This document shows positions 6,534 through 56,127 of a DNA stretch of 64,000 bases, piece by piece (position 1 is the first letter of the stretch; every line of letters starts with the position of its first letter). The notes beneath the pieces were generated by a model. It worked only from the letters and a program-made list of their open reading frames with translations, ran no database searches and was not told where the DNA came from. Both the position numbers and the translations under genes were made by a program. This DNA is from Pomacea canaliculata. Taxonomy: Eukaryota > Mollusca > Gastropoda > Architaenioglossa > Ampullariidae. Where the stretch lies: contig NC_037596.1 of NCBI RefSeq assembly GCF_003073045.1, positions 7,521,416-7,585,415 of the forward strand, read 5' to 3'.

Positions 6534-7232
<699 letters not shown>

Positions 7233-9642: not shown

Positions 9643-9645
9643 CTG

Positions 9646-10044
9646 GTGGAGCGGCTCTTGGAGTTTCTAGACAACGTCAACGAGACTGACAGCGAGGGCT
9701 TCACCTTGTTGTCGAGAGTCGCTCAGACCTCGTCTCCCAAATATGAGGACTTCGCCAGGCGACTGTTGGAGAAAGGAGCTGATGTAAATATGACGTGTCC
9801 AAACGGCAAGACACCGTTAGAACTGTCAGTGATATTCGGCAACTGGAATATAACATTTTTATTGTCTTCTGATAAAACAGATTTCTTAATAGCAAATTGT
9901 CTTGCTGAAGAGTGTCCACCAGAAAAGGAACTTTTGCTTCAGCTAGTTTCAGCAAAAACAGTTGATAAATTGTCACACATACTTTTAGACAGCAGATCTC
10001 TGATACAGCTTGCAGTCATGATGGGACGGTTTAGTATTTCTTAA
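9646..10044 (+). pseudogene. Ankyrin-gene fragment (A/B hybrid type)
   Basis: An open stretch of 132 codons, without its own start region, is homologous to the middle of the giant ankyrin genes. It begins in the block shared by A and B (20680-20780; 28730-28840) and then keeps an LLEKGADVN ankyrin repeat present in B genes but missing from A1, A2 and A3. It ends in a segment (ELLLQL..TVDKL.H..L..RSLIQLAV) that is family A-specific. It stops at 10044 where homology ends. Truncated on both sides, it is best read as a gene fragment of an older family A member. Confidence 0.7.
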
Positions 10045-15190: not shown

Positions 15191-17655
15191 TATAATGACT
15201 AAACATAAGGCTGAGAAAATGGTTGTTGTGATTGTAGCCAAGGGATCTTTCTTTAGGTGATCGACGTGTTGTATTGTCTATCATATAAATACAATATATA
15301 TATATATGCATATTTTATTAGATTTATGTAAATATATCTTATAGAAGTCGATATGTATTACGACTATATAATGAACAATGTATCACTTACCAAAATCGCA
15401 AAATAAATAAATAAACATGCCCCGTAATAAGGGTCATCTTCCAAACATAACATACTGCCTTCAATTAATTTGAATAAATATTTTCGATTTTGGGTTGAAT
15501 TAATTAGAAACTGGTTAGTCATAGCTTGTCAAAAATATCTTGAAAACTATTTTCAGATGAAGCAAGCGCTCAATCAGTAAAAACTAAAGCATGAAGTTCT
15601 AAGGTTGAAGCAGCAAATTGTAAAAGCTGAGATATCTTGATGTTATTTTGTTGACACCTTACAGAGGATAACAAAACATTTTCTCAAAAATAGAAACTGT
15701 GAAGAAAGGTCAGACGCTCATGAAAATCATACATACATGGAGAGTGCAGTCTGTATACATTTAAAGGAAGAGAATGTAGACATGACAAACAAGAGAGTTA
15801 TGTCTCCAAATACTTCATTTCGCCAAACGGGATCTGAACCCTGTGGCTTATACCGTAAAGAAACATGTGCAATGCCCATGTAATGTTTGCTTTACACATA
15901 CATTCATATCAACGGATTTTCAAACTGACCTCTTGATTCAGGTTGAACAGGTTCAACAAGACAATATTATGACCAGAAAGGGAATCTCCGTTTAAAAAGA
16001 AAGGCTTAGAACTTCTTGTCACCTGTCTAGTTTACACACTTCACCTGCTCTGAATATCGAGGTAAGCCTGACAAAGCCCACGTCTTACAAACACATTCTA
16101 TATCTATTTTTTTAGACGCTTGAAGTTTGTGAACACTTTTTTATTGGTAAGATGCTAATCATTTACTTGTTTTTCTTACTTCAAACGCGGAAGTTTTTCG
16201 ATTGTGAGTGACTCAGCCGCCAAGCACACTCCATGATGCCGCCATCATTTTTAACACACTCGCCAACTATGTATCATCGAGGGCGATGAAAGGTTAGTAA
16301 TAAAACCTATGTGGTAATAATAGTAGTAATACTTATCTCCGCGGCCTTCCGAGAACACCGAAGAGTGAATGTTTCATGTAAAGTTCGTGACATTTCAAAT
16401 GGCGACAATTGAAACTCGTGAGGATTTCTACTCATCTGGTAATTCCCACCTGACTAGCTTGAGTGAACAGGTGTAATCGCTTGGCGGGACCAATACACCT
16501 GTTGATAAGTCATTATAGTGTATGAGGATTGTCTTTTACAGTCCTGACACCTCTTTGTTTCATGACTCCACGCTTATTTGCAAAGATAAACCGCCAAGAA
16601 CTCTCTCTCTCTAAATGTTGCTGTCTCTCTCACTACATGTTGCTAGCTCTGTCTCTCTCTCCCACTCTGTTACTAACTCTATCTCTTCCCATTCTATGTT
16701 ACTAACTCTCTGTCTTGCTCTTTCTACCACTTAATGTTGCTAACTCTGTATCTGTCTTACACTCCGTTGCTCCATTCTTCTCTCCATTCCTATCGTATGT
16801 TACTAACTCTGTCTCTGTCTTACACTCCGTTGCTAACACTCTCTCCATTCGTACTGTGTGTTACTAACTCTGTCTTGCTCTCTCCCCCTCTATGTTACTT
16901 TCTCTCTCTCATTCCATGTTTTAAACTCTCTCTCTCCGTCTCTCCCACTCTCTGTTGCCGACTCTCTGTCTCTATAGTAACACAGGTGACAAACACTGTG
17001 ACACTATCAACTAACACACTGGTGTAACATGTCACAATTGTGGAATGGTTAGTGACAAGAGCTGCCTGTAAAACAATACCTCCTCATCCTTTCAAAAGAA
17101 CAAACGAAAGCAATCACTCTACTGCATTCAAAAGCTTTAATTTTTCAGTTTTCTTTTATGATGTTAATTTTTACATCAGGCAACGATTGTAGACATTATA
17201 ACCCACATGGTATATAACTTGCAAGAGATGTAGAATGTTGACTATCTCACATCAGACGATGTGACATAAGATTCTCTAAAGAGTTTACCTGAGTAGAAAG
17301 AACAAAGCAGGTTATTTTTCCGAGAAAAAGTGATTTTAATGCCCTATAGTTAACGTACGAAAGTTTTCCTGATCATTTACCTAATTTTATTTATCAGTTT
17401 TCTTCGTACTTTATATTCGTATTCTATCCTTAAAGTCAAAATACCTATTACTTGAAATGAAAAAAATATTAACATATTACAATTTTTTTAGAGTTAAAAA
17501 TAGTCACATGAAACTTGTTCTGTCTACTGTAGACTACTGCACCTCTCTTCTTACTGTATCTCGTATTACAAATACTCATTATTATTACTTATTTCATTGC
17601 AGGCCTCCTCCAGACGACAGATCGAGACGAAATTTGTGGATGAAGAGATCACGTG
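15191..17655. other. 5' flank of A2: promoter block, minisatellite, leader exon
   Basis: The flank is the inverted counterpart of the A1 flank. It carries the B-box-like segment near 15830-15845, the promoter block 16120-16560 with AGTGACTCAGC (AP-1-like, near 16206) and CATGATGCCGCCATCATT (near 16231), then a C/T-rich minisatellite (16590-16990). After that come AT-rich intron sequence, an acceptor CATTGCAG and an untranslated piece 17603-17655. The stop TGA of the leader frame overlaps the start codon as TGATG. Confidence 0.5.
16590..16990. repeat. CT-rich minisatellite (GTTACTAACTCTGTCTCT-type units)
   Basis: Imperfect units of roughly 30-50 bp contain a TGTTACTAACTCT or TGTTGCTAACTCT core followed by CTCT runs. 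The same array is present inverted at 62750-63140 and shortened at 4440-4600, so it predates the duplications. Open frames here are Leu/Ser-rich artefacts. Confidence 0.8.
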
Positions 17656-20600
17656 ATGGACAACTTAACACAGGCTCAGCATGATGATCCACAGGACTCC
17701 AGTCTTCCAGAAGGCGCGGTGTTGCTGAACTCAGCTTCTGAGGCCGGTAACTGGGATCTGGTCAGAGATGTCATCTCCGATGCTGACGTCTCACCCAGCG
17801 ACATCAGACAGTCTTTTCTCTTACAGAAACTGGAGTCTGCGACTGTTGATCATCATCTTGTCAGAGACATTCTCAAGGAAATATTTTCAAGCGAAGCAAG
17901 TGTTCAGACGATGAAAAGCATCGCCCAAGATGTTTTCATAAAAGCGGCTCACTGTGACAACTGGGAATTCCTGATTGATTTTCTCCTGACGACTGAATCC
18001 TTGTTTGATGACGAGACCACCCTGCTGTCAGTAATTCGACTGATGGCTTCAAGTCAGATGCTTCAGGCAAACCCTTTCCTACATATGGACGTTTTTACTG
18101 CACTGTGGAAACATGCAAATCAGAAGATTATCGACAGCAAAGACAAGAGTGTTCAAAACACCTTGGTACAGATGGCGGCGAAACTCAACATGTGGTCACG
18201 TGTCTGTGACCTTCTCGTCACCAAACCGGACCTCAACCTCCTCGACAGGGAAGGTCTGTCAGTCCTACACAGACTGGTCATGTGTCCTGACAGCAGGCTC
18301 GACTCTCTTATTCCGGTTCTTCTGGAAAATGGCGCCGACGTCCACATCAAGACCAAAAAAGAGACACAATCTTGCACCTGACTGCAAAACATCAAAAGAT
18401 CACAAAATCAGATCCGCCTTTACACCTGCCTGACAGCAAAGACCAGGATAAACGAGAGCAGGCTAAGACAAAGATTTTGGAAGAATATCGCAGTCAATGT
18501 GCTGAGTCCAAGCGTCAGTTACTAGCAAAGCTGATTAGTTCTTGTCAGAATTTAGACGATCAAGATGACTTAGGGAACACGGCGATGATTGTGGCTGCAA
18601 AAACCGACAACTGGGAGTTTATGAAACTACTTCTGGAACATGGAGCCCGTGCTGATATTGTTGACTTGTATCAAAGATCAGTGCTGCATATACTTGCTAC
18701 CAAACAATCATTTACAGATGCCTTGGCGTGTAGAAACCTTGTAACTCTCTGTTTGAGTAGATGGGCTGAGGTGAACAGCCGAGAGGTGTACGGGAATTCA
18801 GTGCTTCACCTAACTGTGCAGTCCAGACACTGGATTTTGTTTGAACTGCTGATAGATTGTGGAGCAGAGCCTGGACATGTAGATAGTGAAGGCTACAACG
18901 TTTTCCACAGACTGGCCCTAACTGAAGGAGAAAACACAGAAAACATATGTTTTTTGTTTTCACTGTTGTGCTTGAGATATTCCTACCTAGATACTTTGTG
19001 TCGAGCGGGTTACACAGTGTTGCACATGGCTGCGAGTCAGCAGAACTGGACACTCGTCAGACACCTTGTGCATCTCGGGGCCAACATAAATCTTTATAAT
19101 AAAGATGGCTTCACTGTTTTACACATCGTTGCCATGACGACTACTTGTACTCGGAAAGGCGAGCAAAATGTAACCAATGAATCAATCGAGAACGACCAAA
19201 CAGAGTTATTATCTGTCGTCGATCTTCTCATCGAAAAAGGAGCTGACATTGAGATATGCTGTTCGAAAGGGGACACGGCGCTCCATCTGGTGGCCAAACG
19301 GGAAAACTGGATCATGGTCAGCTACTTGATTCAAAGGGGAGCAAACTTGAATGCGATGGACAGCAAGGGTTTGCATGTAGTTCAACGACTCATTCAGAGC
19401 AGAACTGAGACCTCGAACGGTCTTCTGCTTTTTCGTCTTCTTTATGAAAAAGGTTCTTTAAGCAGCGTGCAGACTTCATCTAACGATTCGGTTCTTCACC
19501 TTGCTGCCCGACACGAGAAGTGGACGTTTGTTGACCACATTCTGAGTCACCAGGGGGGAAATGTGGACGAGCTGGACAGCGAGGGTTTCAGCGTCCTCCA
19601 CAGAATGACCGTCAGCAAAGGGAGAACATTCAAGGAAGGATGGCGGTGCTCTTATGTCAGGTCTATTGTGGGGACGTCTGCAGCTCTTGACAAATATCAA
19701 ACTGTACTTTTCATCCATCGGGCTGCTGCTGCTGGAAATATCGATGCTGTAGATGTATTGCTCAACAGCTTTGATGATGTCAACAGCACAGACTGTAACG
19801 GTTTCACACTTCTACACAAAGTGTCCCAGTGCTGTTCGTCATCGTCAGTGGCTGTCATTCGAGGTCTTCTCATTAAAGGAGCAGATATAGACAAGAGATG
19901 TCCAGGTGGGGATACAGCACTTCAGTTGGCGGCTAAGAGTGGTAACTGGCTGAATGTCATACACTTAGCACAGTCTGGAGCGAGAATATATTCCCTTGAC
20001 CACCAAGGAATGTCTGTCTTACATCGACTTATTCAGTATCTACACCTGTATTTGAAATCGCCCGAGAACATTTTAACCGAAGAAAGTCTCGACGTCTTAC
20101 TATTTATTTTTACCCAAAATGTGTTGACTAATCAAAAAGATCTCCATGGCAACACTTTTCTGCATCTGGCTGTCACCCATAAACAGTGGCACTTGGCAGT
20201 AGGGTTGTTAACCAGAGGTGCGTCGCTCGGTGAACGAGATTCAGAGGGATACACAACATTGCACATACTTGCCCAGATGCAGCCTTGCCCTAAAGATGAG
20301 ATGGAAACCTGCAGCCTCTTGAAAATGCGTTACAGTCATCTAGACATCCTTGATTTCATCGACGGAAGAGTTTTTATCGACGCTCGTGATCCCTATGGTA
20401 ACACAGCTCTTTTGTTGTCGGCGGAAAACAACAACTGGGACATCTTCCAAAAGCTGTTATTGAAAGGCGCAAATCCTTGTGTAAAAAGCTGCAACGGCGT
20501 AACACTTCTGCATCTTCTGGCGAAAGCAGCATGGAGTAACGATGGACGGGGGAGTGAAGGTTTGCTTTGCCAACTTCTTAAAAACCTGATCTTACAGAAT

Positions 20601-22532
20601 CTTGATGTCAGTGCGCGAGACCCAGAAGGCAACACGCCGATACAAGTTGCTGCTAAGCACGGGAACATGGACATGGTGGACCGGCTCTTGGAGTTTCACG
20701 ACAACGTCCATGAGACTGACAGCGAGGGCTTCACCTTGTTGTCGAGAGTCGCTCAGAGCTTGTCTCCCAGATGTGAGGTCATCGCCTGGCGCCTTTCTCG
20801 TATGGAAACACATTCCTCAATAGCAAAGTGTTTTATTCAAGACATTTACTTTCAAGATGAGTGTGGGATTCAAAAGGAACTTTTGCTTCAGCTATTTTCA
20901 ATGAAAACAATTGATAAATTTGCACACGTACATTTAGAGGGCAGATCGTTACTGCAGCTTGCGGTCGCGGGAAGACTGTGGAGATCAGTTGAAAAGCTAC
21001 TTGAAGATGGAGCATACACTGACCCTGAGCCTCTTCTGGGAGAATCTGTTTTTCATGGTTTTGCAGACTGGGCCCTTATCGCGGGAAATGATGATATGGT
21101 AATGCACCTGATGCCTAGCGGAACCCTGAACATAAACACACGTGACATCAATGGTGACACTCCACTAAACATCCTGGCAAAACATCGTCTTTGGGATTGG
21201 ATACATCACTTTGTGGAGCTTGGAGCGGATGTCAACATGGCCGACAGCGAAGGGTGGACAGTACTTCACCAGCTATCCATGTTAAGTGAGTACCAGATGG
21301 AAGTGAGAGTTAAGAAATCCAGTTTATTAAAATTATGTTGTGATAATGGCGCAAATATCAACGTGACCGGCGGTCCGAACAACAGAACGGCTGTACAGAT
21401 GGCGCTGGACAGAAATGCGTGGACTATTTTCTGGTATCTGATACAATTAGGAGCACAACAAGACTGGACCGAAAATGAAAAACATTGGATTCTTAGAAAT
21501 GTGGATCGTTTACCAAAAAACTGTGCTCTGAATGATAATCTGACAGTTTTCATAAGGTGTCTGATAGAACAAAGCTCAAATCGTACTTTAGTTCACGACA
21601 TAGCAAGTCACTCAACCGTGATGTATGCTTTACAAACCTGTTTATGCTCTTCTAAATGGCGCGTGGCCAAAGTAATAGTTGAATGTACTTCTGAAACGGA
21701 AATGAACGACTTGATGGCTGAGAGGACTTTGATACATAAAATGGTGATGAGTTACAGAAAGAAAGATCACGTGATCTGGGTTTCTCTGCTGGATGCGTTG
21801 CTTGAACGAGGCGTTGACATCAACAGTCGAGACAGTGACGGAGAAACCGTGTTGACGTATGACGCGGTTCTACAGAGCCTTGTGGACCACAACACACCGG
21901 ACTCACTCTTCAGAGTTTTGCTCCAGCGAGGTATCAGCCCCTTACATGTAGACAGCAATGGATGCTCCTTGCTTGAATATGTAATCAATCATGTCCCATA
22001 TATGTTAACAGCAGTTATCTCCCTTTTGGAACTAGGACTGGTCTCCCGTCAGAATCACGATGAAGATGAAGATGACGATGAAGATTCAGCCTCACTGACA
22101 AGACTGGCAGTTGTAAACAAAAACATTCCTGTTTTGAAAATCCTGATTGAATGCGACGTCAGCTGTAACTCCGAGCTCCGAGCCCTCAACGCCGAGTATC
22201 AGATGAAAAAAGCCCGAGAGGCCGAGAGGAACGAACCCTCAGAAGGCCTCGAACAAATCTGCTTGATTCTGGAGCAGGCAGCCACTCAGCCCCGATCTCT
22301 GCAGTCTCTCTGTCGGGTCGCCGTGTGTCGCTGTATACCGTGGGGACTGAGCAGAGGAGACATGGTTCAGTCCCTCCCCATTCCGAAAGTGGTGCAAAAC
22401 TATCTGCTGTTTGCTGATGATATCTCTCATCCTGATGTACAGGCAGGACTTAACGAGGAGGCCACACAGATCCTTCACACTGTTGGTGACGATGATGATT
22501 ATGATCAGGACGATGACGACGACAATTTTTGA
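17656..22532 (+). pseudogene. A2: giant ankyrin-SOCS box protein, one frameshift
   Basis: The ATG is at 17656. Without the shift the product would be about 1625 residues. At 18355-18361 the run ACCAAAAAAGAG lacks one base relative to A1 and A3 (ACCAAAAAGGGAG), ending the first frame at 18381 after 233 good codons; the remaining 1380 or so codons are open to 22532. Some 17 ankyrin double-repeat modules fill the protein. The C-terminus has a SOCS box (about 22284-22425): a BC-box SLQSLCRVAV (22296-22325) and a Cul5-box LPIP (22374-22385), followed by YLLFADD and an acidic Asp-rich end. The family is the ASB-like receptors of ElonginB/C-Cullin5 ligases, though vertebrate ASBs are far shorter. 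The shift may be a real null allele, a homopolymer base-calling error or, less likely, recoding. Confidence 0.85.
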
Positions 22533-23744
22533 GGGACGTGCTCTACACATAAAGCTAACTCTGATGCAGTTTTTGTGTCTTCCGATCGTGTGCGACTTCT
22601 TCAGACAGGACCAGGCAGTTTGTATGTACTACAAATTTGAGAAACAAAACCTGTTTTCTACATCGTAGTACAGCGTATTGGGTCCGTTCAAACTGCTATT
22701 TGTTTCGTTTCTTTCATCATCCACCTTCGTGAACTACTTGCTATGAAGTTACTGTTGTAAACTCCAAAGTCAGTGTTTGATTCTAGGAAATCTTTAAAAA
22801 TTCTCAACTAAGCCGCTCTCGAGATGTCCATTGACAGAACACACCGATTACTTATCCTTTTCTTTAAAAAAAATTTATGTTGAACTCATGAAAATACAAA
22901 ATTAAAGCAGCATTACATCTGTATTAGAATAATTTGTTGTTCACACTGTCAACACCATCGCTAAATGATGTATGTAACATGAACACTATAGAGACTGCGT
23001 GGAATTTCTCTTTGACTTTTTTTTTTTTGCTTTATCTCTTTTGATAAATATGCAAATAAATATTAATATAATATTGATATTTCAATAGTTTGATAAATCG
23101 ATGTATATCAAAATAGATATATTGCTTCATATATTCTAATGATCTTAGAGAAACTATGCGCACATATTTTAGTGATTATGAAGGTACCCATAATGCTATA
23201 GTACTTTTTCACATACTTCCTTTTGCAATAACATGTTAGTCTCAGCTCTTGTTCTTGTTATTTGGTTCTTTTTTGTGTTTTCTGTATTTGATTTTATTCC
23301 TCGTTAGTATTCTTTCTTTAATTCTTTTATAGTTCATATGTTATTTGTTTGTTTTCCTGTCCCTCGTATGCTGTCATAAGTGATTACCTTATTGAGACAA
23401 TCTGATGAAAACGGCAGATGAATGCATCCACACAAACGATGAAAATCGTTAGGACGGCGAAGAGGAAGACGAGGACAAAGACATGTTTCCAGAACTCATC
23501 TCATCCCGGAAGTCATCGCTAATGGCGGTGTGACAGTCGTGGATGTGGGGTAGTCTCAACTCTTGCAAAAACCGTTATCTGCCACAGAGGTTGCTAACAG
23601 CTTCTATGTCACAACTATTCTCAATCGAAGAAAACACTCAAACAGCTGACACTTTATTCAAAGATGCGAGTGTTACGTTTTAGTACACGTTAGTAAACGA
23701 ACACAAAAATATAACTGCTAGTTCTTTCTCTCCACTTCAATGAT
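22533..23744. other. 3' flank of A2 (intergenic)
   Basis: No gene. A possible poly(A) signal ATTAAA at 22901-22906 is kept in the mirrored A3 flank. The rest is AT-rich and mirrored at 56128-57445. Confidence 0.5.
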
Positions 23745-23860
23745 AACATAATGACGTCAATACCTAATTTCGTAACATAATGACGTCAATACCTCATTTC
23801 GTAACATAATGACGTCAATACCTCATTTCGTAACATAATGACGTCAATACCTCATTTCGT
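23745..23860 (+). repeat. Tandem array, 4 x 29 bp, each with a full TGACGTCA CRE
   Basis: Four head-to-tail units begin AACATAATGACGTCAATACC and end TCATTTCGT, differing at one base in the first unit. Each contains the palindromic cAMP-response element TGACGTCA, the binding site of CREB/ATF factors. The array lies 1.9 kb upstream of the B1 start and is mirrored at the same distance upstream of B3. An enhancer role is inferred. Confidence 0.85.
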
Positions 23861-25726
23861 AACAGCGAGCACTCCACTCACTGAAGTCTGCCAATACATT
23901 GTACGGATAATAACACAATGAAACAGAGAAGACAGCCATACACGTTTACATTTTATTTGGGTAGTTTCTTCACGCCTGGCTGATTCTACCCGGCATAATG
24001 CTTCCCTAAAAACCTGTTGCACACAAAAGTCTTTTTAATTTCTGGTGTTTCTAGCGGGGGATCAGTTTGAACCTGAAATTTCAACTGTCGACGATTTTAT
24101 GTCCCACCTAAAGTTACACATGACTTCATCCGGGCACCTTTTTGTCAAGATTTTCTTTATGTTTATTGTATGGGTGACTGTCGGTTCATTCGTGAACATT
24201 CGTGTTCAGCGCATTGAGCTGGTATCCACACGAATAAATTATAATAATCATAATAAAGTTTATTTATACAGCGCTGTACCCCAGTATCAAAGGCAGGCTC
24301 AAGGTGCTTTACAAAAAGAAAACCTCGGTCTCAAAAGCAAATAGTGCAGTGCGATCCCTGATAGTATAGCTAAACAAGTTATCAATGCAATATACTGTAT
24401 CTACAGCCTTGGTGAACCAAGAACCTGTTAAATGGATTTTCAATGTTCGATATTTTCTTTTCTTCATTTTATTGACAATAAAGAATCTGAAAGCGACTGC
24501 TACGAGAGAGCATAGAATGATAGCTTTCATCGCGGTTGAATTGATGTCACAGAGATATGTATATACAGGTCAGGTCAGTAGATTGAAGCATTGCTCTTTG
24601 GTGTTTGTTTGTCTCTTGTTTTCACTACAGACCTTCGTATCCAACGTCAGTCACAAACATGGAGGTGGGCGGTGACACTTCGAGCTGCAAGTTCGCTCCC
24701 GTCGACACAAGGATTCAGAACCACGGACATGGTCATAGAACCCTGCATGTTGTACTTGCATGGTCTGTCCTACAGTGTGTACAAGTCGCTTTTTACATGT
24801 GTCTTTTCCTTCTCGATGGACAAGTGTTTTTACTTTATGTTACTGATGATTTCAAGATCTTCTAAAATTCAACTTTACAAAATAGTGTGTTGGTGTTGGA
24901 CGTACCTTGTCACGTGCAGGCTGGACGTGTCCTTCCAACTTTCGACGATCACCTCCGTGGCGACCTTTGAGTCTCCAAGGGGAAAGAGACAATCGAGAAA
25001 TCAGGTAAAACATCGACATTTGTTGTTTTTAAACCGTAAAAGTTAAGTAAGAGAGAAAAAGCACGGACTTGATTATCACACACTCGCACGCGCAGACAGA
25101 CACACAACCTCTATCACACATTCTCTACTTTCTCTCTCTCCCCGAGGCTGCACTACTCATGAACCTAGGGTCTTTCATTTTGAGAGAAAGGGTTGTCTTC
25201 AAAGAAAGAAAGGTTTGAGGGAGCAGAAGAGGTAGCTTTGATTCAGCATGAACTACAGCACGCATTCTATTTTAGGCATATGAGTCATCAAGATAACAGT
25301 GTTATTAAACTTGATGGGTTGTTCAGTCCCTGATGTGATTGAATAGTGCACTTTAGCATTTAATAGTATCATCTTACACTATCAATGACATAAGCATATA
25401 CTTGTCCACGTAAAGAGCAGGGTTATCACATTCCCCCACCTAAACCTGTGTAGTGGCGAGGTACGGCTTTATTTATCCAAGAGAGAAATTAGAAGCAGGT
25501 CAAAGAGTAATTTCAACAACAATAATACCAGAACAAGTTCACACCCGTGACGGTCATGCATACAGTCATGGTACAAGTCATATATGATGTACATTCATTC
25601 GCACGTGTAGCAAAAGGAATTTTAAGCATAAAGCAAACATTGAATATCTTCTCAATCAACACAAAAAGCGGCTCATACCCAACAGTCGTTGCGCTTGGAC
25701 CATTTACATCCATTATTTCTATCGCA
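23861..25726. other. 5' flank and leader region of B1
   Basis: Positions 24236-24345 resemble a dispersed repeat (TTTATACAGCGCTGTACC..GGTGCTTTACAAAA). Positions 24590-25003 are strongly conserved with 54845-55280 and include TTTTCACTACAG|ACC (acceptor-like, 24628) and a segment between GTCACGTGCAG (24918) and CAG|GTAAAAC (25003/25004) that looks like an internal exon. These could be leader exons of B1 or the remains of another gene; the translated frames match nothing I recognise. Positions 25080-25725 are AT-rich with no feature until the acceptor CTATCGCAG at 25726. Confidence 0.4.
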
Positions 25727-25775
25727 GGCCTCAAGGAACTGAGCGACCTCGACATTCTGGTGGACGGGACAGAGA

Positions 25776-28700
25776 ATGTCTCACGGACAGGAACATTCAA
25801 CATGGAGTTGTGACGACGTTCACCTGGACATCATGGCGAGAATTGCAGAGACCTCGGAGCAGCTAAGCTCTGCTGCTGAGGCTGGTAACTGGAATCTGGT
25901 CAGAGAACTCATTTCTAATGAGCACAATGTAGTACTCGCTATCCAGCAGTCTTGCCTGTTGCATAAATTTGCTTCCCTTACAAAAATTAGTTATCAGCTT
26001 GTGAAAGACATATTAAAACAGATATTTTCCAATATGGAAAGCAGTCAGAATCTCAAAGTCCAAGCAAAAAATGCTGCCGTTGAGGCGGCAAGGTGTGGCA
26101 ACTGGGACACCTTGATAGTATTTCTGTGGTCAGTAGAAGGTTTATTGGAAGATGACAGCAGCCTTCGGTCAGTAATACTGACAATAGCTGATAGTCAGAC
26201 TCTCAGGGAGAAACGTTACCTCCATATAGACGTTCTCAGTGCAGTCTGGAGAAATTCAAAGCAGACAATTCTGGACAGCACAGACAAGACAGTCCACAAC
26301 ACCTTGGTGCAGCTGGCGGCGAAAGTCAACATGTGGTCACGTGTCTGTGACCTTCTCGTCACCAAGCCTGACCTGAACCTCCTCGACAGGGATGGTCAGT
26401 CAGTCCTACACAGACTCGTCATGTGTCATGACAGCAGGTTCGACTCTCTTCTTTCCCGTCTTCTAGAAAATGGCGCCGATGTTAACCTTAAGACCGCCAA
26501 CGGAGACACAGCTCTGCACCTGGCAACCGAACATCAGAAGTTACGCAAAGTTCAATATATTCTACGCCTTGAACACAACAGTGATGAGCGTGAGTATTTG
26601 AAAGCTAGGAATAAATATCGAAATAAGAATGCGGAATCCAAGAACAAAGCATTAGAACTATTTTTTAAAGATTGCCGAAATGTGGACGATAAAAATCGTG
26701 ATGGAAACACAGCGGCCATTCTGGCTGCAAGAATCGAGAACTGGCATTTCCTCAAACTCTTGCTCAAACATGGCGCAAATGTTAATGTTCTTGACAGTCA
26801 TCAGCACTCAGTCCTGCACATTCTTGCTCTGAAACGACCTTCCTTCTACTGTGAGTCCCTTGCTACTGAGTGTATCAAGCATGGAGCCCAAGTGGACAGA
26901 GAAGATGAGAATGGCCGTTCGCCACTTCACCTGGCGGTTGACTCTCAGAACTGGACTTTATGTAAACTGCTGATAGAACACGGAGCAAATCACGACATTC
27001 GTGATCAGGACAACAGCAATGTTTTACACAGACTAACTTTAGCTGACAGCAAACATGTCGAAGAGGTTATGTCTCTTTTTTCTCTTCTTCAATCCCGAGG
27101 TGCAAATATAAATGCAACAGGACCCAGTGGCAACACCATCTTGCATTTAGCTGCAAAGCAGAGGAACTGGACGCTACTTCAACACTTACTGCACCTCGGA
27201 GCCGCCTGTATAAACTCTTATAATGAAAATGGTTTCACAGTTATACACATCCTTGCATCTGACCCTGTGTTAGAAACTGATCACACAAAGGTATTGTCTA
27301 TCATTGACCTTCTTCTCGACAAAGGAGCTGACCTGTCTCTTCCCTGCTCACAGGGTAACACGGCGCTCCACCTGGCGGCCATGCACAAAAACTGGGTCAT
27401 GGTCAAATACTTAGTTCAGCGAGGGTTATCCACTGATGATTTTTGGATCATTCAAAAGCTAATTCAGTGCAAAAATGATACTCATGAGACATCCCCACTC
27501 TTTAGTCTTCTTTATAAAAAGGAATTCTCAAACTTCAGAAATGCTTCTGGTGACTCCCTTTTGCAACTCGCAGCCAAGCATGAGAAGTGGGACATTGTAG
27601 AACACATCTTGAGGCACGAGGGAGGGAATGTTAATGAGTTAGACAGTGAGAGCTGCAGTATTCTTCACAGAATGGCGACAAGCCGAGGAGAAGCGTTTAA
27701 GAAAGGTCAGAATCATCGTAAGGTCCTGTTTATTTTGAATATGTCTTCAACTCTCGACAAACATGAAGTTTTCTTTCTTATCCATCGGGCAGCTGCAGCG
27801 GGCAATATAGATGTCGTGGACTTTCTGCTCAACAAGTTTGATGATGTCAACATGGTGGATTATCACGGGTTCACAGTTCTTCAGAGAGTAAGTCAGTCTT
27901 GTGTATCATCACCAGTGGCTGTAATAGAACGACTTGTCATAAAAGGGGCAGACGTCAATAAGGAGTGTCTGGATGGTAACTCTGCGCTACATCTCGCGGC
28001 TAAAAGCAACAACTGGCTGGCTGTCCAGGCCCTTTTAAGTTACGAAACTACAGCCAACATCTTCGACAACGAAGGTATGACAGTTCTTCACAGATTTCTG
28101 AGTCGGCCGGACTTGCCATGTGAATTGTGTTCTCAAAGTTCTCCAGATAATCTTCTGACCAAGATCTTAAAAAACAAGGCGTTGATTAACCAGAGAGATC
28201 GCAATGGCCATACTCCCCTCCATCTAGCTGTTAAGTTTGAACTTTGGGACAAGGTAGCTGCTTTGTTGGACAGTGGAGCTTGTGTTAACGATAAAGACCA
28301 ATCAGGATGCACTGCCCTGCACATGCTTTCACAGCGCCAAGATTCTCAAAATCTCGGTTGTGAAATGTGCAGAGGTTGGAAACTTCATTTAGACAGGTCT
28401 GAGCTTTTTATCGACAGTCAAATCTTTATTGATGCTCGTGACGAAAGCGGTAATACAGCGCTGATGTTATCAGCGAAACACAACAACTGGGACATCACAG
28501 AGCGACTTCTACAAACAGGTGCTGACCCCTGCATACTGGATAGTAACGGGTTGTCTGTCCTGCATGTTCTGGCTTCTGTAACTCCGATATACGGCAATAG
28601 TTTTTTAACTCAGGAAATGCAAACAAATATTCTGGAACTGTTAATCTCACGTGATGCTGACGTCAATGCCCATGACCCAGATGGCAACACGCCGATACAA

Positions 28701-30293
28701 GTGGCTGCGAAGCACGGGAACATGGACATGGTGGAGCGGCTCTTGGAGTTTAAAGACAATGTCAACGAGACTGACAGCGAGGGCTTCACCTTGTTGTCGA
28801 AAGTCGCTCAGACCTCGTCTCCCAGATGTCAGGACATCGCCACGCGACTGTTGGAGAAAGGTGCTGACGTCAACAGGACGTGTCCTGACATCCAGACTTC
28901 AGGCACGACGACACCACTGTTACTATCTGTCAACTCCAGTAACTGGCCAGTGACATTAAGTCTGTGTAATGCAGGTGCTGACATCGAGGCGTTCTGCAGT
29001 TTTGACCAAATTCTTCACCGACTTATGCATTCAATTACTCCTGATAATATCAGCTTTATCCTACTGCTGATAGGCCTTATACTGGAGGAAAATGAAGACG
29101 TTATCTTTCATCGAAGTTCGGAGGGCCATTCAGTGATGCAACTGGCTTTCAATAAAAAACTATGGGACATTCTTTGTGAGCTTCGTTGGTATGACATATA
29201 CCTGGAGCCAGAAGCGCTGGTGGGACGAGATGTGTTCGAGTACCTGGCAGACTGGGCAATCCGCTCCGATGATCCAGATTGGATTTTTTCCATAATACAG
29301 AATATTGAACGTACCTTTAACTTCATTAACCTACGTGATCGTAATGGGAATACTCCCCTTAACATCCTAGCAAAAGACTATAATTGGTATTATGTCAAAT
29401 TATTCGTCGACTGTGGAGCTGATGTCAACATGCCTGATATTGAGTCCTGGTTACCGTTGCATAGATTACACATGGCAAAGAGTGAAGAGAATGACATCTA
29501 CTTAGAAGTTTGGGATCTCCTACACGAGCTCACTAAACTAGACAGTGGGAACATTTCAATAGGAGGACGTACTCAGTCTTTGGAGAGACCCGTCAGAAGG
29601 ACATCGACGTCACGTGCCAACAACCTGTTTGTGTGTGTGTTCAATGCTCGCTCTGTTCGGAGAAAGTCCAGCTGTATAAGTAACTTTATCAAAGAGAAGC
29701 AGCTTGACATCATGTTCCTGAACGAGACATGGTTAAAGATCAGAGGGGATGAGTTAGTACACGATGATATGACCCCTGATGGCTACTGTATGGAATCCCG
29801 TCCCCGTCCAACCACAGGTGGGGGTGTAGCTGTCCTCTGGCGACGAAACATGTTATATCAGATCGCCGAATCCTTGCCCTTCTCCATCACCAGCTTTGAA
29901 GTGATCCAGTTCACGTTGACGGATCCTGAACTCGTACATTTTTTCTGCATCTACAGACCTCCACGAAGCCAGAAAAACAAGAACGTAGTTTTCTTTGAAG
30001 AATTTCCCAAACTGTTAGATTGGTGTAAAGAGATCCCTGGGAAGGTTGTCTTGCTTGGAGACTTCAATTTTCAATATGACACACGATCACATTCCATATC
30101 AATGTGTCGTCTCATTTCCAAGTATGGATTTGAACAGGCGGTCGAACACCCAACACACACGTCACATCATATCATCGACTGGGTGCTGCACCGACCTGAT
30201 GAGAATATAATTCAGTCCTGTTCCGTGACAGACCGTCTCAAGTCTGACCATTTTGCTGTTCTTTGCTTCCTGAACGTGCCATCCCCGAAATGA
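25776..30293 (+). CDS. B1: ankyrin array fused to a LINE-type EEP endonuclease domain
   Basis: The intact frame has 1505 residues. An in-frame TGA at 25740-25742 and the acceptor at 25726 make the ATG at 25776 the likely start. Residues 1 to about 1265 hold about 16 double-ankyrin modules with the Asn-Trp signature. A linker leads to residues about 1280-1505, an APE-like endonuclease/exonuclease/phosphatase domain of the type found in non-LTR retrotransposon ORF2. It has N1290 in FNARS, E1317 in NETW, Y1393 in YRPP, D1429/N1431 in GDFN, and D1491/H1492 in SDHFAV. The full acid/His catalytic set is thus present. The stop follows 12 residues after the His and no reverse transcriptase follows. 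The expected activity is metal-dependent nuclease or phosphatase; the cellular substrate is unknown. A possible AATAAA lies at 30462-30467. Confidence 0.9.
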   Translation: MSHGQEHSTWSCDDVHLDIMARIAETSEQLSSAAEAGNWNLVRELISNEHNVVLAIQQSCLLHKFASLTKISYQLVKDILKQIFSNMESSQNLKVQAKNAAVEAARCGNWDTLIVFLWSVEGLLEDDSSLRSVILTIADSQTLREKRYLHIDVLSAVWRNSKQTILDSTDKTVHNTLVQLAAKVNMWSRVCDLLVTKPDLNLLDRDGQSVLHRLVMCHDSRFDSLLSRLLENGADVNLKTANGDTALHLATEHQKLRKVQYILRLEHNSDEREYLKARNKYRNKNAESKNKALELFFKDCRNVDDKNRDGNTAAILAARIENWHFLKLLLKHGANVNVLDSHQHSVLHILALKRPSFYCESLATECIKHGAQVDREDENGRSPLHLAVDSQNWTLCKLLIEHGANHDIRDQDNSNVLHRLTLADSKHVEEVMSLFSLLQSRGANINATGPSGNTILHLAAKQRNWTLLQHLLHLGAACINSYNENGFTVIHILASDPVLETDHTKVLSIIDLLLDKGADLSLPCSQGNTALHLAAMHKNWVMVKYLVQRGLSTDDFWIIQKLIQCKNDTHETSPLFSLLYKKEFSNFRNASGDSLLQLAAKHEKWDIVEHILRHEGGNVNELDSESCSILHRMATSRGEAFKKGQNHRKVLFILNMSSTLDKHEVFFLIHRAAAAGNIDVVDFLLNKFDDVNMVDYHGFTVLQRVSQSCVSSPVAVIERLVIKGADVNKECLDGNSALHLAAKSNNWLAVQALLSYETTANIFDNEGMTVLHRFLSRPDLPCELCSQSSPDNLLTKILKNKALINQRDRNGHTPLHLAVKFELWDKVAALLDSGACVNDKDQSGCTALHMLSQRQDSQNLGCEMCRGWKLHLDRSELFIDSQIFIDARDESGNTALMLSAKHNNWDITERLLQTGADPCILDSNGLSVLHVLASVTPIYGNSFLTQEMQTNILELLISRDADVNAHDPDGNTPIQVAAKHGNMDMVERLLEFKDNVNETDSEGFTLLSKVAQTSSPRCQDIATRLLEKGADVNRTCPDIQTSGTTTPLLLSVNSSNWPVTLSLCNAGADIEAFCSFDQILHRLMHSITPDNISFILLLIGLILEENEDVIFHRSSEGHSVMQLAFNKKLWDILCELRWYDIYLEPEALVGRDVFEYLADWAIRSDDPDWIFSIIQNIERTFNFINLRDRNGNTPLNILAKDYNWYYVKLFVDCGADVNMPDIESWLPLHRLHMAKSEENDIYLEVWDLLHELTKLDSGNISIGGRTQSLERPVRRTSTSRANNLFVCVFNARSVRRKSSCISNFIKEKQLDIMFLNETWLKIRGDELVHDDMTPDGYCMESRPRPTTGGGVAVLWRRNMLYQIAESLPFSITSFEVIQFTLTDPELVHFFCIYRPPRSQKNKNVVFFEEFPKLLDWCKEIPGKVVLLGDFNFQYDTRSHSISMCRLISKYGFEQAVEHPTHTSHHIIDWVLHRPDENIIQSCSVTDRLKSDHFAVLCFLNVPSPK

Positions 30294-33200
30294 AAAAAAA
30301 GAAACAAACCAATGTATTTATTATATTGAAAGCACACAGTTTTTGCCATTTTATTAATCCGGATTGACATTCCTCGTTAACTCTCTCTTAAAACTTGGAA
30401 AAGTGCGATTAATCAGACCAGTATACAACGGTCCAGTAGACACTACAGTGGCGTCTGATGGAATAAAGAAATATGTTATCAACGATATTGGGAAGAAAGG
30501 TGTTGATGATAGTAGCAGGCGATGAAACTATTCTCGACTAACGCACAGTGGGTGAGTCAGTCACAGAAAGACCGTGTTGAACTCTTTCACGCATTAAGCA
30601 GACTTTCGCTTTAATAATTTTGCTTTTGTCTGCTACCCGCTATCTACAAGTGTTTCTTTGACAAGAGCAGGCAGCCGTTAAAACGACTGTCAGATTCAGA
30701 AATTCTTTTTCATTTAAATCGCTCTTTATTTATATCAATAAAGCTGAAATGGAGTAGCTCGTAGAAGAGTTTACAGGTAATAATAAGCTATACACCTATA
30801 ATAATAAGCTATACACTTACGCTCGACACTTTTTTTCTGATTTGCGCACGGCAGTGAAAGAACTGCTAAATGTTGATCGGGTGGGGTCCATGGGAAACCG
30901 ACCTAAACAAGACTCTCATGGGTAGACGTCCCTATGGGCTTGATTGTTCAAAGTATTGCATACCCTTGAGAAATATCTAGGTTTTCAAACTCCGTCAGTC
31001 GCCATGTACACTTGTTACGATGGTGTCATTCTCTTTCTGTAAATCTTAACTTGATTTGTCCTCACAACGACGAAGAATGTACTGGGTGCCCAGTTTTAAT
31101 TCCGCTCTGTCGCCATATTTAGCCGCCTGGAGACAAGTTAACAGTAAATAGATGTTCTTTTGATGTTAGTCAGTGTATGAAGGAAGTTCATAGACAGAGT
31201 GTGTTCGATTACAAAACCGATGCCATGATATTTGTTTCCGTTGTCTAACCTCTGATCTGTGTCACAAAGCTGCTGTGCTATTTTTTTTAAATGTTTTTTT
31301 TTTTGGCTAGGAAGGGGACAGGAAATTGGAAGGGGGAGGTTGGAAGTGTCAACAGCCTGAGGCGGGCCGCGCCATACAGGGATGGCCGGCTGATCTATGT
31401 TTAATTAAGTTGGTGTTGATAGGTTGTTTTGTTGGAAGAACAAAGGAAAGAGTGAAGTATTGTTTTGGATGTGTGTGGTGTGACTGAGTTTTTTTTTGTT
31501 GACGGGAGAGAACAGTCTCCTCTGTATTGTCAGTGCGTCCGGAGCGGACGGTTTTTCTATTGTAAACAAGTCTTGAACGACTTGTGGTGTAGTCCTGACT
31601 GGACTGAAAGAATCCTGACAAGATTTGTATCTTTAAATCCTTATTAACATTGAACCTGTTGAGGTGAGTGTCTATCTTTGTTGATTTTTCAGTGAGTGTG
31701 TATTTCTGATGATTTTTGGTGAGCCTGTGCCTACTGTTGAAGAATGGGGAGATTTCTGAGGAGTGTGATATATTTGCGTCTATTTTATGAATATGGTTTA
31801 AAATAGTTGAGAGATGACTTGCATTTGTTAAAGATTGATTTTGTTTTTTCTCTCCAGGTTTTCTTTTGGATTTCTTTTGTGTTTTGTGTTTTTCTCTTCT
31901 GTTGTTCCTATTCTTCGTATCTGCCTGGGGTTCCCGACCAGCGCTGACTTGAAAATAACTTCAAGAAGTGAAAACTTTGTGTTACTTTTCTTATGGATAT
32001 ATTTGTGAACGTTAGAAGTGAAAAAATTGTGCTGTTTCAAGTGGAGACTTTGTGAGGAACTGTACTGTCGGCAAGAAGATTGAATATTTTTGAGAAATTG
32101 GAAGAAACGTGGGTTCGAACTGTGGGTTGGGGAATTTGGACTTGTTTTGTGTTTCTTTTAAATTTCTAATTATATTATTTTTAAAATTTAAATTGTTGTC
32201 TGTGTTTTGATTTATTCATGTTCCTCGTCTGAAAGGTACTGTAGAGTACAGGTGGCAATCTGAATGTCGTGAATGTCCTCTACAAGTGAGACCATAGCTG
32301 ATGCCTTTCGACCAATGAGTCTCTTTGGTCACAAACAAGCATATATCTCAGATATTTATTGAAAAAAATGTTAAAAATAGGAGTCAATGACTGTTTGATG
32401 AACATCTTCATCACGTGTTGGCTCAGCCTCCATCCGATTCACACCAGCAATAATCCAAGGGTTATTCTCCACCCGACGAGATGAACGATATCAGTCGATC
32501 CACAGAGACAAAGTAAACACGTACCCTGTTGACACAAAGATGTACGCTTATTTAAAAGTCGAGATAAACAACACCACAAAACGTGACACTTCACTTAAAT
32601 ACAACTTCCAGTCCTAAAGAATGTACCAACAAAACCAGTGTCTGCTAAGTGTGCCCCCAGACCCGCACCTATTTCTCACCTTCCAGTCAGCCTTTACCTG
32701 TTCTTTTCAATGAGAATGTCGTATACCTGCTCTAGTCATACACTCAAAAGCAGTATGTAAAATAATCACACACCACAGACAACTGAATCAACTTGTTGAA
32801 GACTAGCCTGAAATACTCAGAGAGCTTTCTATGGAACAGCAAACAGAACCCATTCTGCGCCAGTTCAAAGCAGGACACCTACAACATCTATATAAAAACA
32901 TTCGATCTCTTAGAGAGGCTTCCCACCCAGTGTAAACACCCATCACTAACAACGAAGAATATAAGCAGGTCACAACAAATTCCTGTCAAATTAGACATTA
33001 ATCTCCATCGTTGTACATATTTTTCTTTTTGTTTATTTCAACACCTTTATTTCATAATATTTAATTTCTTTTTCTTCAATCTGACGCTCCCCACCCCGCT
33101 AGCTCAAGCTACCTCTCCCCCCCCCTAACCCCAGCCACGACCTGTTAATTAGCCAATCAATATCTGGGTCAGTCATGGAGCAGTGTGTACAGTCCCGTGG

Positions 33201-34725: not shown

Positions 34726-37700
34726 ATGACTCACATACAGGAACATTCAACATGGAGTTCTGACCACGTTCATCCGGACATCATGGCGAGAATTACAGAG
34801 ACCTCGGAGCTGCTAAACTCTGCTGCTGAGGATGGTAACTGGAATCTGGTCAGAGAACTCATTTCTAATGAGCACAATGTAGTACTCGCTATCCAGCAGT
34901 CTTGCTTGTTGCAGAAATTTGCTTCCCTTACAAAAATTAGTTATCAGCTTGTGAAAGACATATTAAAACAGATATTTTCCAATAAGGAAAGCAGTTCGAA
35001 GCTAAAAGTCCTCGCAAAAGATGCTGCCATTGAGGCGGCAAGGTGTGGCAACTGGGACACCTTGATAGTATTTCTGTCGTCAGTAGAAGGTTTATTGGAA
35101 GATGACAGCAGCCTTCGGTCAGTAATACTGACAATAGCTGATAGTCAGACTCTCAGGAAAAACGTTACCTCCATATAGACGTTCTCAGTGCAGTCTGGAG
35201 AAATTCAAAGCAGACGATTCTGGACAGCACAGACAAGAGAGTCCACAACATCTTGGTGCAGCTGGCGGCGAAAGTCAACATGTGGTCACGTGTCTGTGAC
35301 CTTCTCGTCACCAAGCCTGACCTCAACCTCCTCGACAGGGATGGTCTGTCAGTCCTACACAGACTCGTCATGTGTCCTGACAGCAGGTTCGACTCTCTTC
35401 TTTCCCGTCTTCTGAAAAATGGCGCCGATGTTAACCTTAAGACCTCGAAGGGGGACACAGTTCTGCACCTGGCCACCGAACATCAGAAGTTACAACAACG
35501 CCTTGCACGCAAAAGTGGTGGCCTGAGAGCTATGAAAAAATATCGAAAGAAAATTGCGGAATCCAAGAGCAAAGCATTAGAACTACTTATTAAATTTTGC
35601 CGAAAAGTGGACGATAAAAATCGTGAAGGGAACACAGCGGCCATTCTGGCTGCAAGAATCGAGAACTGGCATTTCCTCAAACTCTTGCTCAAACATGACT
35701 CAAATGTTAATGTTCTTGACAGTCATCAGCGCTCAGTCCTGCACCTTCTTGCTCTAAAACGACCTTCCTTCCTCTGTGAGACCATTGTTACTGAGTGTAT
35801 CGAAAATGGAGCCCAAGTGGACAGAGAAGATAAGAACGGCCGTTCGCCACTTCAACTGGCGGTTGACTCTCAGAACTGGACTTTATGTAAACTGCTGATA
35901 AAACATGGAGCAAATCACGACATTCGTGATCGGGACAACAGCAATGTTTTACACAGACTGGCTTTAGCTGACAGCGAACATGTCGAAGAGGTTATGCCTC
36001 TTGTTTCTCTTCTTCAATCCCGAGGTGCAAATATAAATGCGGCTGGACCCAGTGGCAACACCATCGTGCATTTAGCCGCGAGGCAGAAGAACTGGACGTT
36101 ACTTCAACACTTGCTGCACCTCGGAGCCTGTATAAACTCTCATAATCATGAAGGTTTCACAGTTATACACATCCTTGCATCTGACCACTTGTTAGAAACT
36201 GATCACACAAAGGTATTGTCTATCCTTGACCTTCTTCTCGACAAAGGAGCTGACCTGTCTCTTCCTAACTCACGGGGTGGCACGGCGATGCACCTGGCAG
36301 TCATTCACGAAAACTGGGTCATGGTCAAATACTTAGTTCAGCGAAGGTTAATCATTGATGATTTTTGGATCATTGAAAAGCTAATTCAGTGCAAAAATGA
36401 GACCCATGAGACATATCCGCTCTTTAGTCTTCTTTATAAAAAGGAATTCTCAAACTTCAGAAATGCTTCTGATGACTCCCTTTTGCAACTCGCAGCCAAG
36501 CATGAGAAGTGGGACATTGTAGAACACATCCTGAGCCAAGAGGGAGGGAATGTTAATGAGTTAGACAGTGAGAGGTGCAATGTTCTTCACAGAATGGCTA
36601 CAAGCCGAGGAGAAGCGTTTAAGAAAGGTCAGAATTATCGTAAGGTCCTGTCGGTTTTGAATATGTCTTCAACTCTCGACAAACATGAAGTTTTCTTTCT
36701 TATTTATTCGGCGGCTGCTGCGGGCAATATAGATGTCGTGGACATGCTGCTCGACAACTTAGATGATGCCAACATGGTGGATTATGATAGGTGCACAGTT
36801 CTTCAGAGAGTAAGTCAGTCTTGTCTATCATCACCAGTGGCTGTAATCAAACGACTTGTCAAAAAAGGGGCAGACGTCAATAAGAAGTGTCTGGATGGTA
36901 ACTCTGCTCTACATCTTGCGGCAAAAAGCAACAACTGGCTGGCTGTCCAGGCCCTTTTAAGTTACGAAACTACAGCCAACATTCCCGACAACGAAGGTAT
37001 GACAGTTCTTCACAGATTTCTGAGTCGGCCGGACTTGCCATGTGGATTGTGTTCTCAAAGTTCTCCAGATAATCTTCTGACCAAGATCTTAAAAAACGAT
37101 GCGTTGATTAACCAGAGAGATCGCAATGGCCATACTCCCCTCCATCTAGCTGTTAAGTTTGAACTTTGGGACAAGGTAGCTGCTTTGTTGGACAGTGGAG
37201 CTTGTGTTAACGATAAAGACCACTCAGGATGCACTGCTCTGCACATGCTTTCACAGCGCATAGATTCTCAAAATCTCGGTTATAAAATGTGCACAGGTTG
37301 TAAACTTCATTTAGACAGGTCTGAGCTTTTTATCGATAGTCAAATCTTTATTGATGCTCGTGACGACAGCGGTAATACAGCGCTGATGTTATCAGCGAAA
37401 CACAACAACTGGGACATCACAGAGCGACTTCTACAAACAGGTGCTGACCCCTGCATACTGCATGTATTGGCTTCTGTAACTCCGAAACATGCAAATAGTT
37501 TCTTAACTCAGAAAAGGCAAAAGAATATTCTGGAACTGTTAATCTCACGTCGTGCTGACGTCAATGCACGTGACCCAAAAGGCAACACGCCGATACAACT
37601 GGCTGCGAAGCACGGGAACATGGACATGGTGGAGCGGCTCTTGGAGTTTCGAGTCAACGTCAACGAGACTGACAGCGAGGGCTTCACCTTGTTGTCGAGA

Positions 37701-39191
37701 GTCGCTCAGAGCTTGTCTCCCAGATGTGAGGACATCGCCAGGCAACTGTTGGAGAAAGGTGCTGACGTCAACAGGACGTGTCCTGACATCCAGACTTCAG
37801 GCACGACGACACCACTGTTACTATCTGTCAACTCCAGTAACTGGCCAGTGACATTATGTCTGTGTAATGCAGGTGCCGACATCGAGGCGCTCTGCAGTTT
37901 TGATCAAATTCTTCACCGACTTATGCATTCAATTACTCCTGATAATATCAGCATTATCCTACTGCTCATGGGCCTTATATTGGAAGTAAATGAAGATGTT
38001 ATCTTTCATCGAAGTTCGGAGGGCCAGTCAGTGATGCAACTAGCTTTCAATAAAAAACTATGGGATATTCTTTGTGAGCTTCGTCGCTATGACCTACACC
38101 TGGAGCCAGAAGCGCTGGTGGGACGATATGTGTTCGAGTACCTGGCAGACTGGGCAATCCGCTCGGATGATCCAGACTGTATTTTCGACCTAATACAGAA
38201 TATTGAACGTACCTTTAACTTCATTAACCTACGTGATCGTAATGGGAATACTCCCCTAAACATCCTAGCAAAAAACTGTAATTGGTATTATGTCAAATTA
38301 TTCGTCGACTGTGGAGCTGATGTCAACATGCCTGATATTGAGTCCTGGTTACCGTTGCATAGATTACTCATGGCAAAGAGTGAAGAGAATGATAGCTACT
38401 TAGAAGTTTCGGATCTCCTACACGAGCTCACTAAACTAGACAGTGGGAACATTTCAATAGGAGGACGTACTCAGTCTTTGGAGAGACCCGTCAGGAGGAC
38501 ATCGACGTCACGTGCCAACAACCTGTTTGTGTGTGTGTTCAATGCTCGCTCTGTTCGGAATAAGTCTAGCCATATAAGTAACTTTATTAAAGAGAAGCAA
38601 CTTGACATCATGTTCCTGAACGAGACGTGGTTAAAGATCAGAGGGGATGAGTTAGTACACGATGATCTGACCCCTGAGGGCTACTGTATGAAATCCCGTC
38701 CCCGTCCAACCACAGGTGGGGGTGTAGCTGTCCTCTACCGACAACACATCTTATGTCAGATCACCGAATCCTTTCCCTTCTCCATCACCAGCTTTGAAGT
38801 GATCCTGTTCACGCTGACGGATCCTGAACTCGTACATTTTTTCTGCATCTACAGACCTCCACGAAGCCAGAAAAACAAGAACGTAGTTTTCCTTGCAGAA
38901 TTTCCCAAACTGTTAGACTGGTGTAAAGAGATCCGTGGGAAGGTTGTCTTGCTTGGAGACTTCAATTTTCAATATGACACACGATCACATTCCAGGTCAA
39001 TGCGCAGTCTCATTTCCAAGTATGGATTTGAACAGGCGGTCGAACACCCAACACACACGTCCCATCATATCATCGACTGGGTGCTGCACCGACCTGATGA
39101 GAATATAATTCAGTCCTGTTCCGTGACAGACCGTCTCAAGTCTGACCATTTTGCTGTTCTTTGCTTCCTGAACGTGCCATCCCCGAGATGA
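34726..39191 (+). pseudogene. B2: tandem copy of the ankyrin-EEP fusion gene, one frameshift
   Basis: The start at 34726 corresponds to that of B1. After about 143 codons the sequence CTCAGGAAAAACG lacks one base relative to B1 (CTCAGGGAGAAACG), giving a stop at 35176-35178. From about 35180 to 39191 the original frame is open again for over 1300 codons. The EEP domain (about 38516-39191) differs from that of B1 at roughly 20 residues, yet all catalytic motifs (FNARS, NETW, YRPP, GDFN, SDHFAV) are kept. A B1 ankyrin segment near 28540 (DSNGLS) is shortened here. The downstream frame is too well kept for an old pseudogene, so a recent mutation or a sequence error is likely. The unit spacing from B1 is about 8.95 kb. 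Confidence 0.85.
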
Positions 39192-56016: not shown

Positions 56017-56127
56017 ACGAAATTAGGTATTGACGTCATTATGTTACGAAATGAGGTATTGACGTCATTATGTTACGAAATGAGGTATTGACGTCATTAT
56101 GTTACGAAATTAGGTATTCGCGTCAGA
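56017..56127 (-). repeat. Tandem CRE array, 3 intact units plus 1 degenerate (29 bp each)
   Basis: Inverted copy of 23745-23860. Three units keep TGACGTCA; the fourth (56104-56127) has CGCGTCAG instead. Confidence 0.85.

Follow-up and report, generated by a model that had tools for sequence, protein, structure and literature searches.

A LINE-type endonuclease domain joined to a long ankyrin array in a duplicated gene family of Pomacea canaliculata

The window analysed here, a 64,000-nucleotide stretch (C7:7521416-7585415) within the 440 Mb genome of Pomacea canaliculata, contains a gene, B1, in which a long ankyrin array runs in one open frame into an endonuclease/exonuclease/phosphatase (EEP) domain of the type found in long interspersed nuclear elements (LINEs). 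Seven features were observed for B1 and its copies, namely, the fusion itself, a single origin, the lack of a reverse transcriptase, the lack of the SOCS box that the sister A genes carry, the amplification of the gene, the intact active-site residues, and a site-specific constraint on the EEP domain. The reading that we favour, and hold with moderate confidence, is that the domain was captured once and long ago, was amplified together with a neighbouring gene and has been selectively kept, so that the product is probably a working nuclease aimed by its ankyrins.

The fused frame, its copies and its LINE relatives

B1 lies at 25776-30293 on the plus strand as a single open frame of 1505 residues, exactly where an earlier note on this DNA had placed it, and was returned by the genome search at C7:7547191-7551705 (plus strand). 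Residues 1-1263 (25776-29564, plus strand) make up the ankyrin array, as delimited by Pfam matches to Ank_2 (9.1e-86), Ank and Ank_4, by 15 repeat half-modules found at E<0.01 with an iterated repeat hidden Markov model (HMM), and by alignments to EEP-less paralogs that are ~50% identical to the array and end at or before residue 1243. The count of half-modules is near the 'about 16' double-ankyrin modules that the earlier note had given. Residues 1264-1505 (29565-30290, plus strand) make up the LINE-type EEP region, where Pfam matched Exo_endo_phos (PF03372) at residues 1289-1492 with an E-value of 1e-14 over model positions 3-225 of 225; the copy B4 matched it at 1.4e-16. A TGA stop common to B1, B2, B4 and B5 and then an A-rich stretch take up 30291-30316 (plus strand), where the LINE likeness ends. 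The 3' flank beyond it (30317-30893, plus strand) is present in B1 and B5, partly present in B3 and absent from B2 and B4, and has no reverse transcriptase match.

The residues put forward earlier as catalytic (N1290, E1317, Y1393, D1429/N1431 and D1491/H1492) were all found in B1, and T1460 and D1468 are there too; from the literature on LINE and APE endonucleases we take the catalytic set to be N, E, Y, D-x-N, T, D and D-H. All nine positions are unchanged in B1, B2, B4 and B5, and B3 retains the three that fall within its remaining piece. The AlphaFold model of the B1 EEP region is confident and shows a complete EEP fold starting at about residue 1281, with a predicted local distance difference test (pLDDT) score under 50 over the first 16 residues of the region. 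A sequence search of solved structures gave no match at E 0.001, and in a structure comparison with VIA the protein Crc was among the best matches.

The whole-B1 query gave 50 matches in the genome, among them five B genes, of which only B1 and B4 are unbroken over 1505 codons; between these two, 1504 codons were compared and 225 nucleotide changes counted. B2 (34726-39191, plus strand) has a frameshift, a one-base gap, near codon 144 and a complete EEP domain at 38463-39188. B3 (50048-54089, minus strand) is a broken copy whose EEP remnant (50102-50572) stops at residue 1420 because a deletion of ~570 bases has removed the last 85 codons (1421-1505); the aligner gives EEP positions 1-165 for it, of which 157 codons are in register. 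The genome search placed B4 at C7:7608866-7613380 and B5, which is split over three frames, at C7:7512583-7517089, both on the minus strand and outside the window. When the genome was searched with the EEP domain only, B1, B2, B4 and B5 were complete and 92-100% identical to B1. The copies are 95-96% alike in this domain. Thus the whole domain and the same TGA stop are kept in four of the five copies, and the claim that the domain was retained through several duplications holds genome-wide, as it does for the window, where two of three copies had been said to keep the complete domain and to stop just after SDHFAV: B2 ends at the same TGA as B1, and B3 is shortened.

That the frame is a simple read-through into a whole LINE, which the earlier note had denied, is rejected here as well. 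Over 4.0-4.9 kb downstream of each of B1, B2, B4 and B5 the only reverse transcriptase match up to E 1 had an E-value of 0.35, and as a positive control such a match was found in the ~1.5 kb flank of 23 of 25 LINE EEPs from the same genome, the exceptions being L031 and L034. In B2 an apparent LINE likeness extends up to ~80 bases past the stop, but it is weak, A-rich and crosses the stop and was not counted. A recent LINE insertion was likewise rejected, there being no convincing target-site duplication (a comparison of 29401-29660 with 30286-30900 at word lengths 8 to 14 gave one chance-like 8-base match) and no close LINE seen among the 150 of 289 own-genome candidates scored. Independent capture by each copy is contradicted by the common junction, by the similar identity on either side of it and by the tree.

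In this tree, built from 20 EEPs, the complete domains of the four B copies group as a single clade (100/100), and the B EEP thus goes back to a single origin. Next to this clade are P0002 and P0127 with moderate support (82/78), and then the snail copies L014 and L034 (91/89). Nine external EEPs were used, six from records with a reverse transcriptase domain and three (P0127, P0128 and P0130) from records without one, for which a LINE origin is inferred. Over the C-terminal half, P0002 and B1 share 51% identity, and the best LINE match outside this genome is 50% identical to the B1 EEP. The search for a donor in the snail's own genome scored the best 150 of 289 candidates, best first, and among these 150 no LINE close to the B EEP was seen; the best match, L014, is 40% identical and has three stops. 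Identity to the B1 EEP is 36-40% for the 25 own-genome LINE EEPs that were retrieved, some of which lie within frames of 968-1133 residues; L034 has one stop. Short pieces of higher identity occur, up to 52% over 44 residues among the matches listed, and each of the four that were fetched scores higher against P0002 than against B1. Since no close donor was seen in the genome, either the capture is old or the donor family has been lost here. Within the window, a relic of a LINE ORF2 3' end at 8483-8718 (minus strand) is 46-50% identical to the C-terminus of P0002.

Changes within the EEP domain

Across the five B copies 38 EEP codon columns vary in amino acid. The site test started at position 21 of the EEP region and skipped positions where few LINEs align, which reduced the amino-acid columns from 38 to 35 and the synonymous columns from 12 to 9, and own-genome LINE rows more than 85% alike were dropped (25 to 5). 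Measured against a yardstick of 14 LINE-type EEPs, mean entropy is 2.27 in the variable B columns and 1.73 over all sites, a difference with a permutation p of 1e-4; among 221 rotations the actual placement of the changes ranks best, and neutral simulations with and without CpG excess give p at most 2.5e-4. Only 2 of the 35 changes fall in the most conserved quarter of LINE EEP positions. The three-copy test agrees, and after removal of clusters p is 0.001 and 0.004. By lineage, with few sites each, p is 0.18 for B1 (6 sites), 0.006 for B2 (7 sites) and 0.027 for B3 (5 sites). The contrast between synonymous and nonsynonymous changes gives p 0.008 with three copies and, with five, 0.05-0.08 against the combined or external yardstick and 0.175 against the own-genome one. 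As a control, the private changes of 14 LINE copies from the same genome are unbiased (entropy 1.61 vs 1.60, p 0.47, 28 columns), and 9 of 29 fall in the conserved quarter (Fisher vs B, p 0.017); because some of these copies, which lack stops across the stretch compared, may be young or active, the contrast serves as a reference rather than as a strictly neutral baseline, which is a first point to be set against the favoured reading. The amino-acid changes among the B copies shun the positions conserved in LINE EEPs, and this pattern points to constraint on the domain. In addition, no copy has a gap in the EEP relative to B1. With 13 gaps for every 104 substitutions in intergenic sequence, the 33 differences between B1 and B2 would lead one to expect about four gaps, and the Poisson chance of none is ~2%.

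The ratio of nonsynonymous to synonymous substitution rates (dN/dS) was calculated by the method of Nei and Gojobori (NG86); in the analysis that gave the B1-B2 values, poorly aligned codons were first removed (1498 to 1489; 1360 to 1313). Between B1 and B2 it is 0.74 (0.36-1.92) for the EEP and 0.71 (0.54-1.01) for the ankyrins, and between B1 and B4 it is 0.81 (0.36-2.21) and 0.64 (0.47-0.86), respectively. EEP pairs with the truncated B3 give 0.39-1.39, and the pair A1-A2 gives 0.52 (0.39-0.72). The clearly low dN/dS of the EEP that the earlier note had named as support was not obtained, and neutrality is not rejected by the overall dN/dS of the EEP, whose intervals include 1. Between B1 and B3 the divergence is 0.036 in the EEP and 0.032 in intergenic sequence. 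It was also observed that the ankyrin coding divergence of this pair (25776-29564 vs 50102-54089), at 0.053, exceeds the intergenic 0.032 of the same duplication. Faster change of the ankyrins would suit a receptor under changing demands, but gene conversion between paralogs could give the same result, and the dN/dS estimates of the ankyrins lie below 1, at 0.61-0.71.

Further findings weigh against a selectively kept nuclease. The six full-length EEP pairs have dN/dS of 0.59-0.90 with 1 inside every interval, and the B1-B3 EEP value is 1.39-1.60. With the five own-genome LINE EEPs as sole yardstick the site test weakens to p 0.026 (29 sites, of which 6 lie in the conserved quarter). At three positions where the nine external EEPs do not vary, the B copies have another residue (H1433Q, L1447I and G1464H, the last being D in B5), and position 1433 is close to the GDFNF motif of the active site. 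In the assembly the frames of B2, B3 and B5 are interrupted, with one frameshift, several breaks and three frames, respectively. Protein searches over lengths 828-2634 and 220-700 found no Pomacea record with this EEP, and B1 itself is not in the best 120 of 232 protein matches; public gene models therefore seem to lack B1.

Some of these points would be expected if the EEP were an inert passenger, a LINE fragment that became C-terminal by chance and has stayed open through recent duplication or homogenisation by gene conversion, since dN/dS intervals reaching 1, an EEP divergence near the intergenic one and three broken copies all fit it. We consider it quite unlikely because conserved sites are avoided by the B changes and not by the changes in the LINE control copies of this genome, because the EEP has no gaps in any copy, and because no close donor was seen among the genomic candidates scored, which suggests that the domain was open before the duplications too. 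The departures from LINE-invariant sites, H1433Q among them, would also suit an EEP fold that is retained for binding or structure instead of nuclease activity, for example for nucleic-acid binding, as a decoy or as a C-terminal cap. Constraint on fold positions does not single out catalysis, and Crc is, according to structure titles, an EEP-fold protein of Hfq translation-repression complexes. On the other hand, the nine active-site residues are unchanged wherever the position is held and binding would not require the full set, so that this explanation appears unlikely to us.

Finally, the fused frame might be unused, with the EEP spliced out or the gene silent. That the EEP was not found in public Pomacea proteins of the two length ranges is in keeping with this, as is P0011, a public gene model of the A type (91-98% identity to the A copies over ungapped segments) that leaves out some of the open frame and finishes in a different one. 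We think it very unlikely, given that B1 and B4 have stayed open over their whole length despite the changes between them and that four of the five B1-B2 gaps are multiples of three. The earlier proposal of a captured nuclease with a possible host role is supported in part, namely, for a captured LINE-type domain without reverse transcriptase, of single origin, retained and with a constraint pattern. That the B copies have kept the structural core and the catalytic residues since duplication suggests that the snail uses the EEP domain.

The sister A genes and the missing SOCS box

A SOCS box is an adaptor to the Cullin-5/Elongin ubiquitin ligase. A2 (17653-22532, plus strand) has one at its end (22287-22409; PF07525, 5.9e-11) and a single frameshift near 18360. 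A1 (1-4212, minus strand) runs off the window and its SOCS box is just outside, at C7:7520879-7521001. A3 (57446-62300, minus strand) is a broken paralog with a SOCS box at 57572-57694 (2.4e-8). The paralog L007 likewise ends in a SOCS box, and a further one, L006 (1585-6078 of its own sequence), has a 1497-residue frame in which Pfam matches neither SOCS box nor EEP. The comparison of A3 with A2 shows 49 gaps; 38 of them are one base long, and 45 have lengths that are not divisible by three. Either A3 is a pseudogene or the assembly is poorly polished in repeated sequence, and some breaks in the cluster may therefore be assembly errors.

Genome-wide there are 95 SOCS matches. The C7 cluster at 7.46-7.67 Mb accounts for 11, among which are the boxes of A1, A2 and A3 and a further one past B4. 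No B interval contains any of the 95, Pfam did not find PF07525 in B1 or B4, and in the window the B arrays are not followed by any match to the A C-terminus. Since the sister A genes carry a SOCS box and the B genes do not, the most likely explanation is that the last ankyrins and the SOCS-box end of the B ancestor were replaced by the EEP, and the history of the B genes would then most likely be a swap of the terminal effector domain and not a simple addition. The exact point at which A and B diverge could not be placed because the sequences are too diverged. An A gene is followed by a B gene on the same strand four times (A1-B5, A2-B1, A3-B3, and a copy at 7617852 with B4), while B2 comes after B1 and is outside these pairs. 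The A2-B1 block at 15900-31200 recurs in inverted orientation as B3-A3 at 48900-63834 with ~89-95% identity.

Three smaller observations were made in the window. A 192-base patch of A1 (1082-1273) is 90% identical to the B genes, compared with ~67-74% for the neighbouring matches, and gene conversion between A and B is the probable reason. A lone ankyrin-coding fragment at 9644-9800 is 91% identical to B1 28729-28885 and lies in no long frame. At 6779-7371 a long CA/GT microsatellite gives open frames on both strands that are probably not genes.

Proposed history and comparison with known systems

B1 is one of a family of giant ankyrin proteins in Pomacea, and a SOCS box closes several of these. 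We propose that in one ancestor a LINE related to P0002 and P0127 most likely supplied the endonuclease domain that took the place of the terminal ankyrins and their SOCS box. The reverse transcriptase part is absent, and the frame closes at a stop right after the EEP. The A-B gene pair now occurs four times, with B2 as an extra copy, and since the duplications the EEP has gained neither stops nor indels in four of five copies, changing mostly at positions that also vary among LINEs. APE1 and LINE endonucleases cut nucleic acid with a metal ion. The fused protein is probably made, its EEP would by analogy nick nucleic acid with Mg2+ by an APE1-type mechanism, and the ankyrin array would supply the target, so that a receptor that once handed its ligand to a ubiquitin ligase would now bring a nuclease. 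More tentatively, in a receptor family that changes rapidly, capture of a transposon endonuclease may have converted an ankyrin-SOCS receptor that marks its ligand for ubiquitination into a protein-guided nuclease, which may act on the nucleic acid of invaders or transposon particles bound by the ankyrins.

The nearest parallel found is ruminant bcntp97, which, according to a passage of PMC4161310, is a duplicate of the Bucentaur gene in which the RTE-1 endonuclease was taken up as an extra coding exon. Like the B genes, it is a duplicated host gene that acquired the AP-endonuclease-like domain of a LINE. It differs in that Bucentaur was joined to RTE, whereas in the snail an ankyrin array is fused in one open frame; in that an exon was added, whereas the B domain most likely replaced a SOCS box; and in that the B EEP exists in five copies. 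Presumably the LINE lineage of the B EEP is other than RTE. The original papers on bcntp97 are reportedly those of Iwashita et al. 2003 and 2006. When the B genes are held against what marks a bcntp97-type capture, the fusion and the lack of reverse transcriptase are seen and the site test gives constraint, while the dN/dS intervals include 1.

With the ankyrin repeat and SOCS box (ASB) proteins the A paralogs share the layout of ankyrins and a C-terminal SOCS box, but the B genes have an EEP at the end in its place, and because the SOCS box is missing B1 is not an ASB protein. LINE ORF2 endonucleases, such as P0002 and TRAS1-EN (PDB 1wdu), resemble the B EEP in fold, catalytic residues and sequence relationship; the B domain differs in having no reverse transcriptase, in being attached to ankyrins and in that the frame ends after it, and because reverse transcriptase is missing B1 is not a LINE. 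L1TD1, given in a passage of PMC4161310 as a LINE protein turned host gene, is LINE-derived as the B genes are, but its source is ORF1 and not the endonuclease.

Host genes that retain a LINE endonuclease seem to be few, ruminant bcntp97 being the one found in the literature, and in the search listings of the open-access literature no fusion of ankyrins with a LINE endonuclease was found. If our reading is true, the B genes would be an independent case, in a mollusc, of a retained LINE endonuclease. The B and A genes stand side by side as a before-and-after pair, SOCS box against EEP, in several copies and with an intact-looking active site, and they make directly testable the idea that a repeat-array receptor may gain a transposon nuclease as its effector.

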